Below are positions 8,961 through 64,000 of a stretch of 64,000 nucleotides of DNA, in pieces (within the stretch, counting starts at the first letter, position 1; every line of letters begins with the position of its first letter). The DNA is from Marinobacter caseinilyticus (lineage in GTDB: Bacteria > Pseudomonadota > Gammaproteobacteria > Pseudomonadales > Oleiphilaceae): the NCBI RefSeq assembly GCF_011074955.1, contig NZ_WUQJ01000020.1, forward strand, positions 124,001 through 188,000. The letters run 5' to 3'. Made by a program: the position numbers and the translations under genes. The notes below the pieces were generated by a model. That model was not told the origin of the DNA. It made no database searches and saw only the letters and a program-made list of their open reading frames with translations.

Positions 8961-9283
8961 CTTCCCGGCTCCGCACCGTGGTGGTCAGCGACACCGGGCG
9001 GCTGCCACCTATCCCGGGTGTTGGCGTCCCCGGGTGTGATTCTGCAGATTATTATGACTTTAGATAAAGATAAGCTTGGCATTGGCCGGCACATCGTAGT
9101 ACAGTGGCGTTCGTTGGAAAGATTTAGCAAAGCATTTCACGAATAAGACGCAGCACTGTCGTAGATAGTAGTACACCGTCCTGTTTTTGATTACGCACGT
9201 TTTTTGTTTCCGCACACCGCTGATCAGGCATCATTTGGATGACCCGACGGCACATTAAATAATTGATTTCAGGAAGTTTTTAT
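8961..9283. promoter_or_regulatory. Long leader region of the cold-shock gene
   Basis: This 323-base gap contains no gene. Its right half, from about 9080, is AT-rich and carries the promoter and probably a long 5' untranslated leader, as is usual for cspA-type genes whose mRNA folding senses temperature. A weak TTGGCA lies near 9075, but no promoter can be placed with certainty. AGGAAG about ten bases before 9284 is the ribosome site. Confidence 0.4.
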
Positions 9284-9490
9284 ATGTCTACAACTACCGG
9301 TACTGTTAAGTTTTTCAACGAAGCAAAAGGCTTTGGCTTTATTACTCGTGAAAGCGGCCCAGACGTTTTTGTTCACTTCAGCGCCATTCAAGGCGGTGGT
9401 TTCAAGACTCTGGCTGAAGGCCAGCAGGTTGAGTTCACCGTAACCGACGGCCAGAAAGGCCCTCAGGCGGAAAACGTTGTTGCTCTGTAA
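9284..9490 (+). CDS. Cold-shock protein, CspA family
   Basis: A complete 68-residue single cold-shock domain with RNP1 (KGFGFITRE) and RNP2 (VFVHFSAI) motifs. It is a small cytoplasmic RNA/ssDNA chaperone that melts mRNA structure. Start ATG 9284 has an AGGAAG site; an upstream in-frame start at 9263 adds seven residues that the family lacks. A strong intrinsic terminator follows within 20 bp, so it is monocistronic. Confidence 0.97.
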
Positions 9491-9506
9491 ATAACAGACA
9501 GCACGT

Positions 9507-9534
9507 AAAAAGGCAGCCTCGGCTGCCTTTTTTA
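9507..9534 (+). terminator. Rho-independent terminator of the cold-shock gene
   Basis: GGCAGCC (9512-9518), a TC spacer, GGCTGCC (9521-9527), then a run of seven T. The A-run before the stem also allows function on the other strand. Confidence 0.93.
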
Positions 9535-10046
9535 TTGCCTGCTCGAAAGTGCTTGTCGCACCACACAGGCCCTTACTCCCCCGCACAAACCGCTCTCCAC
9601 ACGACCGTGCTGGCCGCCCAGCCTTCCCACCGACCAAAAAAACCACAACCTGACTCATACACTGCCGAAGCCGGTCTTTTAATTCGGTTGGGGATGAACG
9701 TATCGTCTCCAGTTAACCTCTTTGCTGACCGAGTATCGGAGCATTGCCAATACCGGCGGCGCCAGCGGCCCCTGGCCCTCACCGACCACCCGAGCAACAA
9801 AGCTCATCGCGGATTGGCGTGAAAGCCAACGATCACCAAAGACTCGGCTGCCGACACCGTTCGCCGGTGCCACTGCATCACCTCAGACCACGGCAAGGCC
9901 CGATCGAGGCTCAGGGGCCTGCCGGCCGTCCCCAAGCGGATGCGTCGGCGCCGAAGAGCCTTCCGGCCGCATAGGTGGGCGCTCCCGTTCCACATAACCG
10001 AGCGCCACTGGAAACGCCACCTACCAGTGCCTGGACATACTGATCG
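9535..10046. other. 512-base gap without a recognisable gene
   Basis: Lies between the cold-shock terminator and the end of choV. Short open frames exist on both strands, but none has a ribosome site or a recognisable protein. I see no tRNA, repeat or clear terminator for the cho operon here. Confidence 0.5.
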
Positions 10047-59829: not shown

Positions 59830-59919
59830 ACTTAACGCCGAAGGTTATCAGCGCCGGAACGCGGCAAACGAACCCAAAAGCGCCCCGCTTTTAGTGTCCG
59901 GTTGACGGGCCGGTTGACT
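59830..59919 (-). repeat. attC-like site downstream of the Cys-rich cassette
   Basis: ACTTAAC (59830-59836, perfect RYYYAAC; leftward GTTAAGT, perfect GTTRRRY) and GTTGACT (59913-59919). Inside, AAAAGC/GCTTTT form a hairpin, and TGTCCGGTTGAC is shared with the site at 60258-60426 (TGTCTGGTTGAC). Confidence 0.55.
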
Positions 59920-60257: not shown

Positions 60258-60426
60258 TTTTAACGCCATAATTTGCGGGCGATTGAAGCGAAGTGTAAAC
60301 CGCTCCGCAAGATTGTTTTGTTATTAAATTTGTCAATTTTTCCTACCACTACTGCGGGGGGGGGGGGATTACCGAGGGAACCAAAAGCGGTACGCTTTTG
60401 GTGTCTGGTTGACCGCCTGGTTATGC
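60258..60426 (-). repeat. attC-like site with a G12 tract
   Basis: TTTTAAC (60258-60264) and GTTATGC (60420-60426) bound it; the hairpin CCAAAAGCG/CGCTTTTGG at 60381-60401 and the flanking TGTCTGGTTGAC match the 59830-59919 site. A run of 12 G at 60356-60367 lies inside. The PNPOx-like stop codon overlaps the right core. Confidence 0.45.
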
Positions 60427-60921
60427 ATGCTCCGACCACATCCCATCCATCATCACTGGGTAGGTGATGGGTTTGTAGTGGGTGAAATCAATATCCCTGA
60501 CATGGGTAAAGTCAGTCCAAAGCAGCCGCGCCCCTTTCATCCAATGAGACGGCTTAACCCGCTTTTCTATCCTCTCGATTTCTTCGGGTGTGGCTTCACG
60601 AACAGGCCCAACTTTGCCATAGAGCCTCACACCCGGTGGAGCAACGAAACGGCCTTTTAACAGCGACTTTAACCAGAAGAAGCGGCCCGCATTGACTGCC
60701 ATGATGCAAACATCAGGGTTCTGGTCGATGTTTTTACCCAAGGTCTCGGCGTAATGATCAAAGAAATATCCTGTCTGATCATCGCGGAGAAAGACAGTGC
60801 CGATGGGGGTAATATGGGGAGTGTTATCGGGATTAACGGTTGCGATAGAACAGTAGATACTCGAAGCCTGACCTTGTTCTAATACCGACTTCACTTTCTG
60901 CCAGTCGTCCTTGATGTTCAT
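60421..60921 (-). CDS. PNPOx-like split-barrel flavin/cofactor-binding protein
   Basis: A 166-residue protein of the pyridoxamine 5'-phosphate oxidase fold: ASSIYCSIATVNPDNTPHIT, GTVFLRDDQTGYFFDHYAET and VCIMAVNAGRFFWLKSLLKG. Related proteins bind FMN, F420 or heme; function not assignable. ATG 60921 has AGGAG upstream. It lies between attC-like sites and is probably a cassette gene. Confidence 0.8.
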   Translation of the reverse strand: MNIKDDWQKVKSVLEQGQASSIYCSIATVNPDNTPHITPIGTVFLRDDQTGYFFDHYAETLGKNIDQNPDVCIMAVNAGRFFWLKSLLKGRFVAPPGVRLYGKVGPVREATPEEIERIEKRVKPSHWMKGARLLWTDFTHVRDIDFTHYKPITYPVMMDGMWSEHA

Positions 60922-60936
60922 TGTTACTCCTTTTGT

Positions 60937-61014
60937 GCATATCGCTGAGCGCACCGGTGGCCTTGACGTAGCGAAGCGGAGACAAGGGCATCCGAGTGAC
61001 GCGCCTGGTTAGCT
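60937..61014 (-). repeat. attC site between toxin and PNPOx-like cassettes
   Basis: GCATATC (60937-60943) and GTTAGCT (61008-61014) flank arms that pair as CCTTG/CAAGG, CGG/CCG and CAC/GTG, with an unpaired T between CAC and CGG on the gene-proximal arm. The same CAC-T-CGG arrangement is in the site at 63511-63570. The toxin stop codon overlaps the GTTAGCT core. Confidence 0.72.
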
Positions 61015-61311
61015 GCTCCCAAGCATGTAAGCACGAAGCTGCCTCTCCTCTCGCATGACATAGAGGACAAAAACTCGCTTCACATCCTCACGATAAAAAA
61101 TGCGACATGGTGGAACGACGACTTCCCTATATACAGAATTAGGGAGCTCTGGAGGAATCCGCCCGGATTGGTGGAAATTTTCCAAGCAGTCGGTTTTATC
61201 GAAAACTTCTTCTACCAGGCGGCTTGCGGCGGCAGGATTATCCAGAGCAATGTACTCTGCGATTGCGCTTAACTCTTGAAGGGCCGGCTCAGTCCAGATT
61301 ACTTCAGCCAT
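61009..61311 (-). CDS. RelE/ParE family toxin
   Basis: A 100-residue toxin of the RelE/ParE superfamily: VIWTEPALQELSAIAEYIAL, DNPAAASRLVEEVFDKTDCL and REVVVPPCRIFYREDVKRVF, then VLYVMREERQL. Such toxins cleave mRNA at the ribosome or poison gyrase; which is not decided here. It overlaps the antitoxin end by 13 bp, the usual coupling. Part of a cassette with its antitoxin. Confidence 0.9.
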   Translation of the reverse strand: MAEVIWTEPALQELSAIAEYIALDNPAAASRLVEEVFDKTDCLENFHQSGRIPPELPNSVYREVVVPPCRIFYREDVKRVFVLYVMREERQLRAYMLGSS

Positions 61312-61556
61312 TTACTCATTTTCTCCCTGGCCTCACTTTGGCTGTACGTTCTTCCCTCAAGTACAGCACGCTCTCCTCGTGAGAGCCCCTCAAGCAGCTC
61401 AAGCCGACGCTGCATGAACTCGTAATCCTGCACATCAACAAGATAAGCCGATGGCTGGCCATGTTCCGTGATCAGTACCGGCTCTTTAGACAGGTGCAGG
61501 TCTGCCAAGATTTTTGTAGCTTGACGCTTAAGGTTTGTAACAAGCTCAACTTTCAT
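61299..61556 (-). CDS. Phd/YefM family antitoxin
   Basis: An 85-residue antitoxin: MKVELVTNLKRQATKILADL (DNA-binding fold), PVLITEHGQPSAYLVDV (conserved Phd core), then a toxin-binding C-terminus. It should neutralise the downstream toxin and repress the promoter through the palindrome just upstream. ATG 61556 is the likely start; a TTG at 61574 is possible. Confidence 0.9.
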   Translation of the reverse strand: MKVELVTNLKRQATKILADLHLSKEPVLITEHGQPSAYLVDVQDYEFMQRRLELLEGLSRGERAVLEGRTYSQSEAREKMSKWLK

Positions 61557-61580
61557 GGCCTCACCCTGATTCAAATTGAT

Positions 61581-61619: not shown

Positions 61620-61680
61620 AGCTAACGCCAGCCAGCGCGGCTACGAAATTAAGTCGAAGCCGCAATGGAGTAGACGTCGC
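61620..61680 (-). repeat. Left remnant of an attC interrupted by the IS110 element
   Basis: AGCTAAC (61620-61626; leftward GTTAGCT) followed by a hairpin GCGGCT/AGCCGC with CGA/TCG inside (61637-61663). The matching core, GTTAAAT at 62876-62882, lies on the far side of the IS110 element. Confidence 0.5.
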
Positions 61681-61735
61681 CGTGCCTGGCCTTGTATGGA
61701 TAATTTCTGCGTTGTTTGGGTAAAGTGAGGCCCAC

Positions 61736-62821
<1,086 letters not shown>

Positions 62822-62876
62822 GAATCATGGCGAGGCGAAATGGCTTAATTTATGGCATTGACACCACAGTCACTTG

Positions 62877-63512
62877 TTAAATGCTTCCATCTCCGAATTT
62901 CTGTCGTCCAGCGCGAACAAACTCTTGGTGCTTAGCTACTACCTCATCTGCCGCATCGCCTATTTCCTCGGCCTCTTTCTGAAACTCAAGTTCTCGCTGA
63001 TGACCACCTTCGTAGTGATCAGGGCGAACAGCCTGAAATCCATACTTGTTCGGAGATGTGTACTTGCCAACTAACGTATTGAATTTCCGGGCAGCCGTAT
63101 AGAGTTGAACTTTTAGCTCTTCAACGTCTTTATCCTGGAACTCATGCTCTGCATTACCCCATTCATACAAAAATTCTTCGATGAGATTGATCTCATCTCG
63201 TTTGAACGAGCCCAAGAAATCATGAGTTTTCAGAAAATGGATTACCCCAGTGCTTGGCAGTAGCTCAAGAAGCTGCTTGAACAGAAATACGTCCGAGGGG
63301 TGGGCACCGGCGGCCTCTTCCTGAGTTTTGCGAGCGCCAGAATGGTCCTTCCAGTCAAACCCGACAAAAGCACCTAGCGATGCAAGAAAAACTACGATGG
63401 GTTCCCACTCAAAAGACCACCCCACAGGATTCCAAAAGAACCATGCTACCGTAGCCATAATACTCGCGAGGGAGAGATATTTTGCGACTTGCATCTTCAT
63501 ACTCATACTCAT
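62877..63512 (-). CDS. Hypothetical two-helix membrane protein (cassette gene)
   Basis: A 211-residue protein: two N-terminal membrane helices (YLSLASIMATVAWFFWN and PIVVFLASLGAFVGFDW), then a cytoplasmic helical domain with VIHFLKTHDFLGSFKRDEIN and EEFLYEWGNAEHEF. No family recognised. Its ATG is inside the attC core GTTAAATG at 63511-63517, and its stop TTA overlaps the next core at 62876-62882, so it is a complete gene cassette. Confidence 0.75.
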   Translation of the reverse strand: MSMSMKMQVAKYLSLASIMATVAWFFWNPVGWSFEWEPIVVFLASLGAFVGFDWKDHSGARKTQEEAAGAHPSDVFLFKQLLELLPSTGVIHFLKTHDFLGSFKRDEINLIEEFLYEWGNAEHEFQDKDVEELKVQLYTAARKFNTLVGKYTSPNKYGFQAVRPDHYEGGHQRELEFQKEAEEIGDAADEVVAKHQEFVRAGRQKFGDGSI

Positions 63513-63570
63513 TTAACGCCTCAAACACCGGCGCAGCTTTGCTGCGTCCGAGTGCTTTGACTTGTTATGT
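63511..63570 (-). repeat. attC site, canonical
   Basis: ATTTAAC (63511-63517) and GTTATGT (63564-63570) flank arms that pair closely: TCAAA/TTTGA, CAC/GTG, CGG/CCG and CGCAGC/GCTGCG around the central loop. A at 63551 and C at 63555 are unpaired on one arm only, the arm next to the upstream gene's stop codon. Such extrahelical bases set attC orientation and fit a leftward cassette. Confidence 0.87.
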
Positions 63571-63579
63571 GCTACTTGT

Positions 63580-64000
63580 TTATCGCCCATTTTGAAGATC
63601 CGTTAACGCTTGATCTAAATTACCCACAGCTTGGACAATAGTTTCAACAGCCGAGCGATCGAACTCGCCATCTCGCTGAGAATCATGGGTGCCACTATTT
63701 AGGTATCCCCATTCTATTGAACCGCCAGCCACTCCTAACAATGCATCCAGAGCTCCAATAGAGGAAATAACTGCATTAGACTGAATCGGATTCCTTCTCA
63801 AAGAAGAACGAATTTTACTGCACTTATTATTCAACTCCCACGGTGACCGTGGCCCGCTAAGCTTAAGTTCAATACGCCCATCTCCACGTCTTGCCATCCA
63901 AGTCCATAACCGGTCCGTTAGGCTTTCTATAGCTGCCCGAGAGTTATAAAGGGCTTCTCGTTTATCATCATTAGCGAATGCTTGCTGAGCTTTAAGATTG
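63580..64000 (-). CDS. C-terminal part of an unidentified protein, runs off the right edge
   Basis: The frame ending in TAA at 63580 stays open to the last base of the window, giving at least 139 residues; the first internal Met is at 63897, but coding clearly continues upstream (AFANDDKREALYNSRAAIES). It has SLTDRLWTWMARRGDGRIEL and KLSGPRSPWELNNKCSKIRS, a helical C-terminal region I cannot name. It is the gene whose 3' attC is 63511-63570, so probably a cassette gene. Confidence 0.6.
   Translation of the reverse strand, partial: NLKAQQAFANDDKREALYNSRAAIESLTDRLWTWMARRGDGRIELKLSGPRSPWELNNKCSKIRSSLRRNPIQSNAVISSIGALDALLGVAGGSIEWGYLNSGTHDSQRDGEFDRSAVETIVQAVGNLDQALTDLQNGR

Follow-up and report, generated by a model that had tools for sequence, protein, structure and literature searches.

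The attC site at the right end of the window

A hairpin-forming sequence at the right end of 64,000 bp of Marinobacter DNA raised the question of whether it is the recombination site of an integron and, if so, where the integrase of this integron might be located. This window is C13:124001-188000 of a draft Marinobacter genome (4.31 Mb, 37 contigs). Contig C13 comprises 352,704 bases, and positions to the right of the window are given for the segment L010 (C13:183001-203000), the window position being the L010 position plus 59000. A previous interpretation of the letters, here called the sequence-only reading, had described a canonical attC at 63511-63570 (Table 1) with two one-sided unpaired bases, in an orientation consistent with cassette genes running leftward on either side, and had expected the integrase, if there is one, to the right.

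The cores of attC sites follow the consensus RYYYAAC for R'' and GTTRRRY for R', and the integron integrase acts on the hairpin formed by the bottom strand of an attC, which it recombines with attI or with another attC. On the minus strand, the focal site possesses the R'' core ACATAAC, with one mismatch, and the R' core GTTAAAT, which fits the consensus. Its plus strand, the bottom strand of the attC, was predicted by single-stranded DNA folding to form a single hairpin with an unpaired 2x2 spacer and with T63547, A63551, and C63555 each bulged out on one side; the last two were the unpaired bases named by the sequence-only reading, and the first one had been overlooked. The folding energy was −15.7 kcal/mol compared to −6.5 ± 1.7 kcal/mol for shuffled sequences, with 0 of 200 shuffles as good, and the z-score was −5.27 for the plus strand and −4.9 for the opposite strand.

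A first, cruder score, which combined the mismatches in the cores with the pairing of the arms and the energy of the fold, assigned 19.9 to the focal site and up to 24.1 to the background. Because it failed to discriminate, this score was replaced by matrices and a covariance model trained on relatives. Twenty intI-adjacent stretches from other genomes (18 from the same genus and 2 from the same order) yielded 134 candidate attCs, of which 85 non-identical sites from 16 loci were used for a two-matrix score (PWM in Table 1) and 50 sites for the covariance model CM R1. This is a model of our own and not that of IntegronFinder, its training arrays came from within the genus and the order, and its alignment of 50 attCs contained two-sided compensated changes in 13 of the 18 pairs. 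The focal site was the top match of CM R1 in the window plus the 15 kb to its right (53.5 bits, E = 8.4e-10). Three further sites were reported on the minus strand, at 60258-60326 (39.4 bits), at 60937-61014 (38.5 bits), and at 61620-61699 (24.8 bits, E = 0.0035), the last one being a split site; with default filters, there was nothing beyond these four attCs up to an E value of 5. The matrix scores were 60.0 for the focal site and 41.1, 46.7, and 41.0 for the other three in the same order, compared to 34.3 as the top of 20 shuffles of the 64-kb window and 32.4 for the highest-scoring place elsewhere in the window, which was inside a coding gene. A control set of 600,537 bases, made up of window positions 1-59500 plus L013-L040 and inspected at the top two places on each strand of each source, contained six places with a score of at least 34 (in L013, L025, and L027), and all six were attCs according to the covariance model. 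Rfam contained nothing attC-like for the window, with four sub-threshold matches around the array, a result that says little. In the whole genome, CM R1 found at least 17 attCs at E ≤ 0.01 on the four contigs C5, C13, C15, and C28, a lower bound because 150 of 2,059 candidates were scored and at least the site at 60258 was missed.

With both cores, a bulged hairpin with spacer, and a CM score above the background, 63511-63570 is, judged by its sequence, a genuine canonical attC that is known in kind. That the hairpin instead arose by chance as a palindrome, or acts as a transcription terminator, could be argued from the frequency of simple inverted repeats and from the naive score, which did not separate the site from the background, but the E value of CM R1, the three neighboring sites of the same kind, the cassette-like spacing of the genes, and the absence of a T run leave practically no room for this explanation, which is refuted by the model scores. 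The attC is an ordinary one without departures beyond the usual sequence variation. Like the attC sites of chromosomal integrons, for example those of Marinobacter arrays and the VCR and aadA attC sites, it has the R''/L''/L'/R' layout, 2-nt spacers, and one-sided extrahelical bases, and it is similarly positioned and oriented behind a gene, differing in its short, variable loop. As a hairpin, the plus strand of the focal attC would be a substrate for an integron integrase, with attI or another attC as the partner.

The cassette array

The three further CM-supported attCs, including the split one, are located within 3.3 kb of the focal attC, on the same strand and among cassette genes (Table 1), and the array genes between the attCs are all leftward. 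The orientation of the focal attC was thus correctly described before, and the assignment of the rightmost region to an integron held as well. Neither of the two outcomes that the sequence-only reading had named as refuting it, a background score of the site in a covariance model or the lack of any other attC within about 10 kb, was obtained.

Table 1. Features of the array, of the inserted element, and of related sites (window positions unless a contig or locus is given)
Feature	Position	Strand	Evidence or comment
attC of first cassette	63511..63570	-	CM R1 53.5 bits, E 8.4e-10; fold z -5.27; PWM 60.0
First cassette gene, 878-aa SMC/RecF-like AAA ATPase	63580..64000, on to L010 (whole: L010:4580-7216)	-	ORF; Pfam SMC_N, AAA_23
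Second cassette gene, 211 aa	62877..63512	-	ORF; start overlaps R' core of focal attC
R'' half-core ATTTAAC of second cassette's attC, severed by IS	62876..62882	-	Sequence
IS110-type insertion element, 1180 bp, inside attC, with CT as core dinucleotide on either side	61693..62872	+	Ends common to copies in relatives
IS110-family transposase, 308 aa	61895..62821	+	Pfam DEDD_Tnp_IS110, Transposase_20; NCBIfam IS110 RNA-guided transposase 219 bits
Putative right-target guide GGTAACAAG in IS upstream non-coding region	61801..61809	+	Complementary to CTTGTTA at insertion point
Remainder of IS-split attC (L'', loop, L', R')	61620..61692	-	Rejoined site scores 56.4
Third cassette, antitoxin Phd/YefM	61299..61574	-	Pfam; 96.7% identical copy in G074 array
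Third cassette, toxin ParE	61009..61311	-	Pfam; 87% identical copy in G074 array
attC of Phd/ParE cassette, altered R' core GATATGC	60937..61014	-	CM 38.5 bits, E 2.5e-6; PWM 46.7
Fourth cassette, pyridoxamine-phosphate-oxidase-like protein	60421..60954	-	Pfam PNPOx_N
Half attC after PNPOx gene, left half only, R' side lost	60367..60426	-	By-eye resemblance to L062:1157-1245
attC upstream of last cassette	60258..60326	-	CM 39.4 bits, E 1.5e-6; PWM 41.1
Last cassette gene, 104 aa	59933..60247	-	ORF
Possible diverged terminal attC	59830..59919	-	By-eye resemblance only; PWM 15.8, within shuffle range
intI C-terminal remnant (~58 residues) beside nrdB/nrdA	L160:14108-14297 = C15:82107-82296		
attI-like sequences	G000 C5:188822-188977, C28:1-148, C36:1-148; G004 C1:1161146 and 3688295; G091 C1:1720920		

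The gene of the first cassette has its 3' part in the window and extends to 2.2 kb past the window end. Its product matched ATPase components of defense systems in 42 PADLOC families, the best being mad3 (E = 1.6e-20). Seven N bases are located within this gene at L010:6096-6102. The proteins of the second and the last cassettes had no match in Pfam, PADLOC, or NCBIfam, and that of the second cassette additionally none at E ≤ 0.001 in 123 other Marinobacter genomes. The array in G074 with the related Phd/ParE pair adjoins an open intI frame of 321 aa. The attC of the second cassette still reached 24.8 bits with CM R1 when the end of the inserted element took the place of R''. The half attC behind the PNPOx gene was not reported by the covariance model, and the possible terminal attC is weak and did not appear in the output up to an E value of 5.

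The array head and the missing integrase gene

The stretch L010:7270-7469, 2.3 kb past the window end, is 77 to 79% identical to the region between the first cassette and intI in the genomes G026 and G004. At least partial matches to this stretch were present in 38 of the 124 genomes searched, and of the 30 loci taken with it, 13 had an adjoining intI hit, whereas the others, including this array, had none. It contains at L010:7443-7458 the box CTGTATATTTATACAG, which aligns with its counterpart in intact integrons and which we take to be a LexA box. As judged by this homology, attI and a LexA-boxed integrase promoter are kept at the array head in the correct orientation.

In G026 and G004, intI starts about 12 nt after the end of this similarity. 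In C13, where the similarity to intact integrons breaks off some 12 nt short of the position at which intI would start, unrelated sequence follows and then a gene for 183 aa, which is also present in M. changyiensis. A profile search with TIGR02249 found no intI over the cut-off on the 352 kb of C13, and the only one over the cut-off in this genome is a complete gene of a different type on contig C24, 591 bases from the contig end. For this assembly, the expectation of an integrase on the right-hand side therefore holds for attI and the promoter but not for the gene itself. A complete integron, the integrase of which lies just rightward and was missed through the window border, would agree with the presence and orientation of attI and promoter and with the finding that 38 of 57 relatives, this genome not being counted, possess an intI above the cut-off. 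The entire contig without such a gene and the replacement of intI by unrelated sequence and the 183-aa gene refute this possibility for the sequence as assembled and make it very improbable.

Of a complete integron, attI and the integrase promoter are present by sequence homology and intI beside attI is absent, and of a CALIN, which requires at least two attCs and no nearby integrase, there are four CM-supported attCs, one of them split, and no intI. Since the intI gene is gone, the array is, on the sequence at hand, an attI-headed CALIN, or CALIN-like, and known in kind. It shares with a CALIN several attCs and cassettes on a contig without an intI over the cut-off, but attI and the LexA-boxed integrase promoter are retained here, with the integrase gene alone missing.

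A free-standing gene for a 103-aa SAM-like integrase N-terminal domain is located at L010:13396-13707, with Phage_int_SAM_4 as its sole Pfam match. It was the only TIGR02249 match on C13 at E ≤ 0.001 and is widespread in the genus. It was considered as a remnant of intI and rejected, being a separate gene in 97 of 124 genomes (own included) with 59 to 79% identity in the others. Matches at E ≤ 1e-10 occurred in 100 of the 124 genomes, in three of them (G008, G115, and G121) via intI only, and the identity to IntI N-termini was 32 to 37%.

The junction that replaces intI, L010:7470-7597, was absent from all 123 other Marinobacter genomes searched, so that the intI-less head depends on this assembly, and a misassembly is possible because the junction rests on one draft contig. 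The array and attI might then belong to an integron on the nrdAB side, a C-terminal intI piece of which is on C15. The loci fetched from 12 other genomes have intI, either complete or broken, next to nrdB/nrdA (families confirmed by Pfam), and on the nrdB/nrdA side on C15 of this genome, only a C-terminal piece of ~58 residues is left of this type of intI. Moreover, C5, C28, and C36 share a 520-nt repeat with an attI-like segment, which indicates that repeats did break the assembly. Against an assembly error, the copy of the attI region on C13 is only 84% identical to those on C5, C28, and C36 and is therefore not the collapsed repeat, C15 has an attC array of its own 6.5 to 10 kb from the intI remnant and nrdAB side, and C13 runs on for 162 kb beyond the junction. 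An assembly error is thus regarded as unlikely, and C13 may instead carry the head of the old nrdAB-side integron, which would have been moved elsewhere.

With high confidence, the focal site can be regarded as the attC belonging to the first cassette of a chromosomal Marinobacter array that is headed by attI and has lost intI, the next attC being split by a probably RNA-guided IS110-type element. Such an array would have lost its mobility and would be stable unless an integrase acts in trans, for which the complete intI on C24 may be one candidate. The locus matters because attI and the SOS-type promoter have persisted beyond the loss of the integrase gene, which makes it a clear example of a decaying integron, and because the adjacent insertion element provides natural guide-target pairs, with which an RNA-guided targeting of integron recombination sites is directly testable.

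The gene on the right flank presumably encodes an "LVIVD-like" protein. The eight closest of 29 named loci for this protein were all from Marinobacter, at 80 to 94%, with M. changyiensis at 94%, and 11 of the 29 were Marinobacter loci. A synteny search around this gene in 16 loci revealed the 183-aa gene alone as recurring nearby, both in M. changyiensis and, in fragmentary form, in L023, with the exception of a distant TRAP-transporter similarity in three loci. The M. changyiensis locus (L013) contained no attC at the position equivalent to that in C13, its attCs being on the other side.

The IS110-type element in the neighboring attC

The attC of the second cassette was interrupted by an insertion element between R'' and the rest of the site (Table 1). 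This insertion should fuse the second and the third cassettes into one unit. The element is single-copy in this genome. A DEDD transposase with a C-terminal Transposase_20 domain places it into the IS110 family, and structure matches indicated homology of the transposase to IS621 and ISCro4. Relatives at E ≤ 1e-60 were present in 17 of 119 other Marinobacter genomes. The flanks were analyzed for 26 loci, which gave 23 distinct two-flanked copies, and a score of 36 was used as the cut for rejoined sites. Seventeen copies rejoined to an attC at or above this cut, all 17 cut at the same point, and the shuffles, five per site, reached 13.7 at most. The remaining six copies (L086, L095, L096, L100, L101, and L103) yielded no attC above this score when their flanks were rejoined.

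The subterminal inverted repeats of the attC-targeting IS1111 elements are 11 to 13 bp long. No subterminal inverted repeats were found in the element here, the outermost 45 nt of its two ends matching each other in inverted orientation at 7 of 9 positions at best. Its non-coding regions comprise 202 nt upstream and 51 nt downstream of the transposase gene. The IS1111 type, as outlined in PMC11187229, includes the attC-targeting ISKpn4 and ISPst6 and has the longer non-coding region downstream of the transposase gene, with exceptions noted. In common with the IS1111-attC group as characterized there (ISKpn4, ISPst6, ISPa25), the element possesses a DEDD transposase, a specific position in the attC, and a non-coding region matching the target, whereas the longer non-coding region upstream of the transposase gene and the ends, with no subterminal inverted repeats found, are as in the IS110 type, to which the element is assigned by these features. 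With the IS621/IS110 bridge-RNA elements (PDB 8wt6; PMC11208160), it shares a homologous transposase, the upstream non-coding region, and the CT core on both sides, but here attC sites are targeted, and the RNA is a putative one.

The putative guide and its target

An alignment of 21 upstream regions contained the motif G(A/G/T)TAAC(A/C)AG, which, from TAAC onward, is the complement of CT(T/G)GTTA in the right flank. When the upstream region of this element is folded, the AACAA of the putative guide is unpaired. The variable guide base agreed with the flank of its own copy in 20 of 20 cases, as A-T 14 times and as C-G 6 times, with a permutation p of 2.5e-5. These 20 usable copies came from 16 genomes, of which three contributed two or three copies each; L086, with a flank that is one base shorter and does not fit the guide in register, was set aside. 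On the transposase tree, parsimony required four switches of the guide base, which is therefore not one inherited state. The complete covariation together with the switches supports the role of this putative guide. For a guide to the left-hand target, no significant match was obtained among the many offsets tried (best p 0.07).

The upstream non-coding region would thus probably yield an RNA that guides the element to the TAAC(A/C)AG end of attC sites. Judged from these sequences, this suggests that the element is an RNA-guided attC parasite of the IS110 type, unlike the described IS1111-attC group. By extension, and with somewhat less assurance, a Marinobacter lineage of IS110-type elements may parasitize attCs by an upstream bridge- or seek-type RNA, the guide of which switches between TAACAAG and TAACCAG and so tracks the two common attC variants. 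Acting separately from the IS1111-attC group, this lineage would split attCs and freeze cassettes, next to an IS1182-family element inserting into the R' core of the same sites. For follow-up, this putative attC parasite is more surprising than the attC itself, and the IS1182-family element with the same target preference should be included. In titles and starts of abstracts of the best-ranked literature matches, no IS110-type or IS1182 element was described as targeting attC, and the best-ranked matches on Marinobacter chromosomal integrons contained no mention of Marinobacter.

Other mobile and attI-like elements

The IS1182-family element was defined at L063:94-1923 with its transposase at L063:280-1851 (NCBIfam NF033551, 273 bits). 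Its loci were L063, L075, L087, L158, and L159 plus the 30 loci L162-L191, some of which had been fetched for their arrays, and its end sequence was present in 24 of 61 genomes. Its insertion point is the GTT within the R' cores of attCs: over all loci collected, 34 of 36 distinct outward flanks begin with AAC or GTT. Among three two-ended copies in the 40 loci examined, two rejoined to an attC (57.2 and 57.4) with a 3-bp GTT/AAC duplication, and the third was cut by a contig end.

Sequences similar to attI but without an integrase promoter were dispersed in several Marinobacter genomes (Table 1). The one on C5 heads an array of five attCs, for which no intI hit was obtained up to the contig end or in the repeat continuations of 8.0 kb on C28 and 5.3 kb on C36. 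Some of the others appeared, by eye, to be in mobile-element regions. Far from the array, a cspA thermoregulator RNA was located at window positions 9098-9535 (Rfam RF01766, 88.3 bits), the sole Rfam match at or above the gathering threshold.
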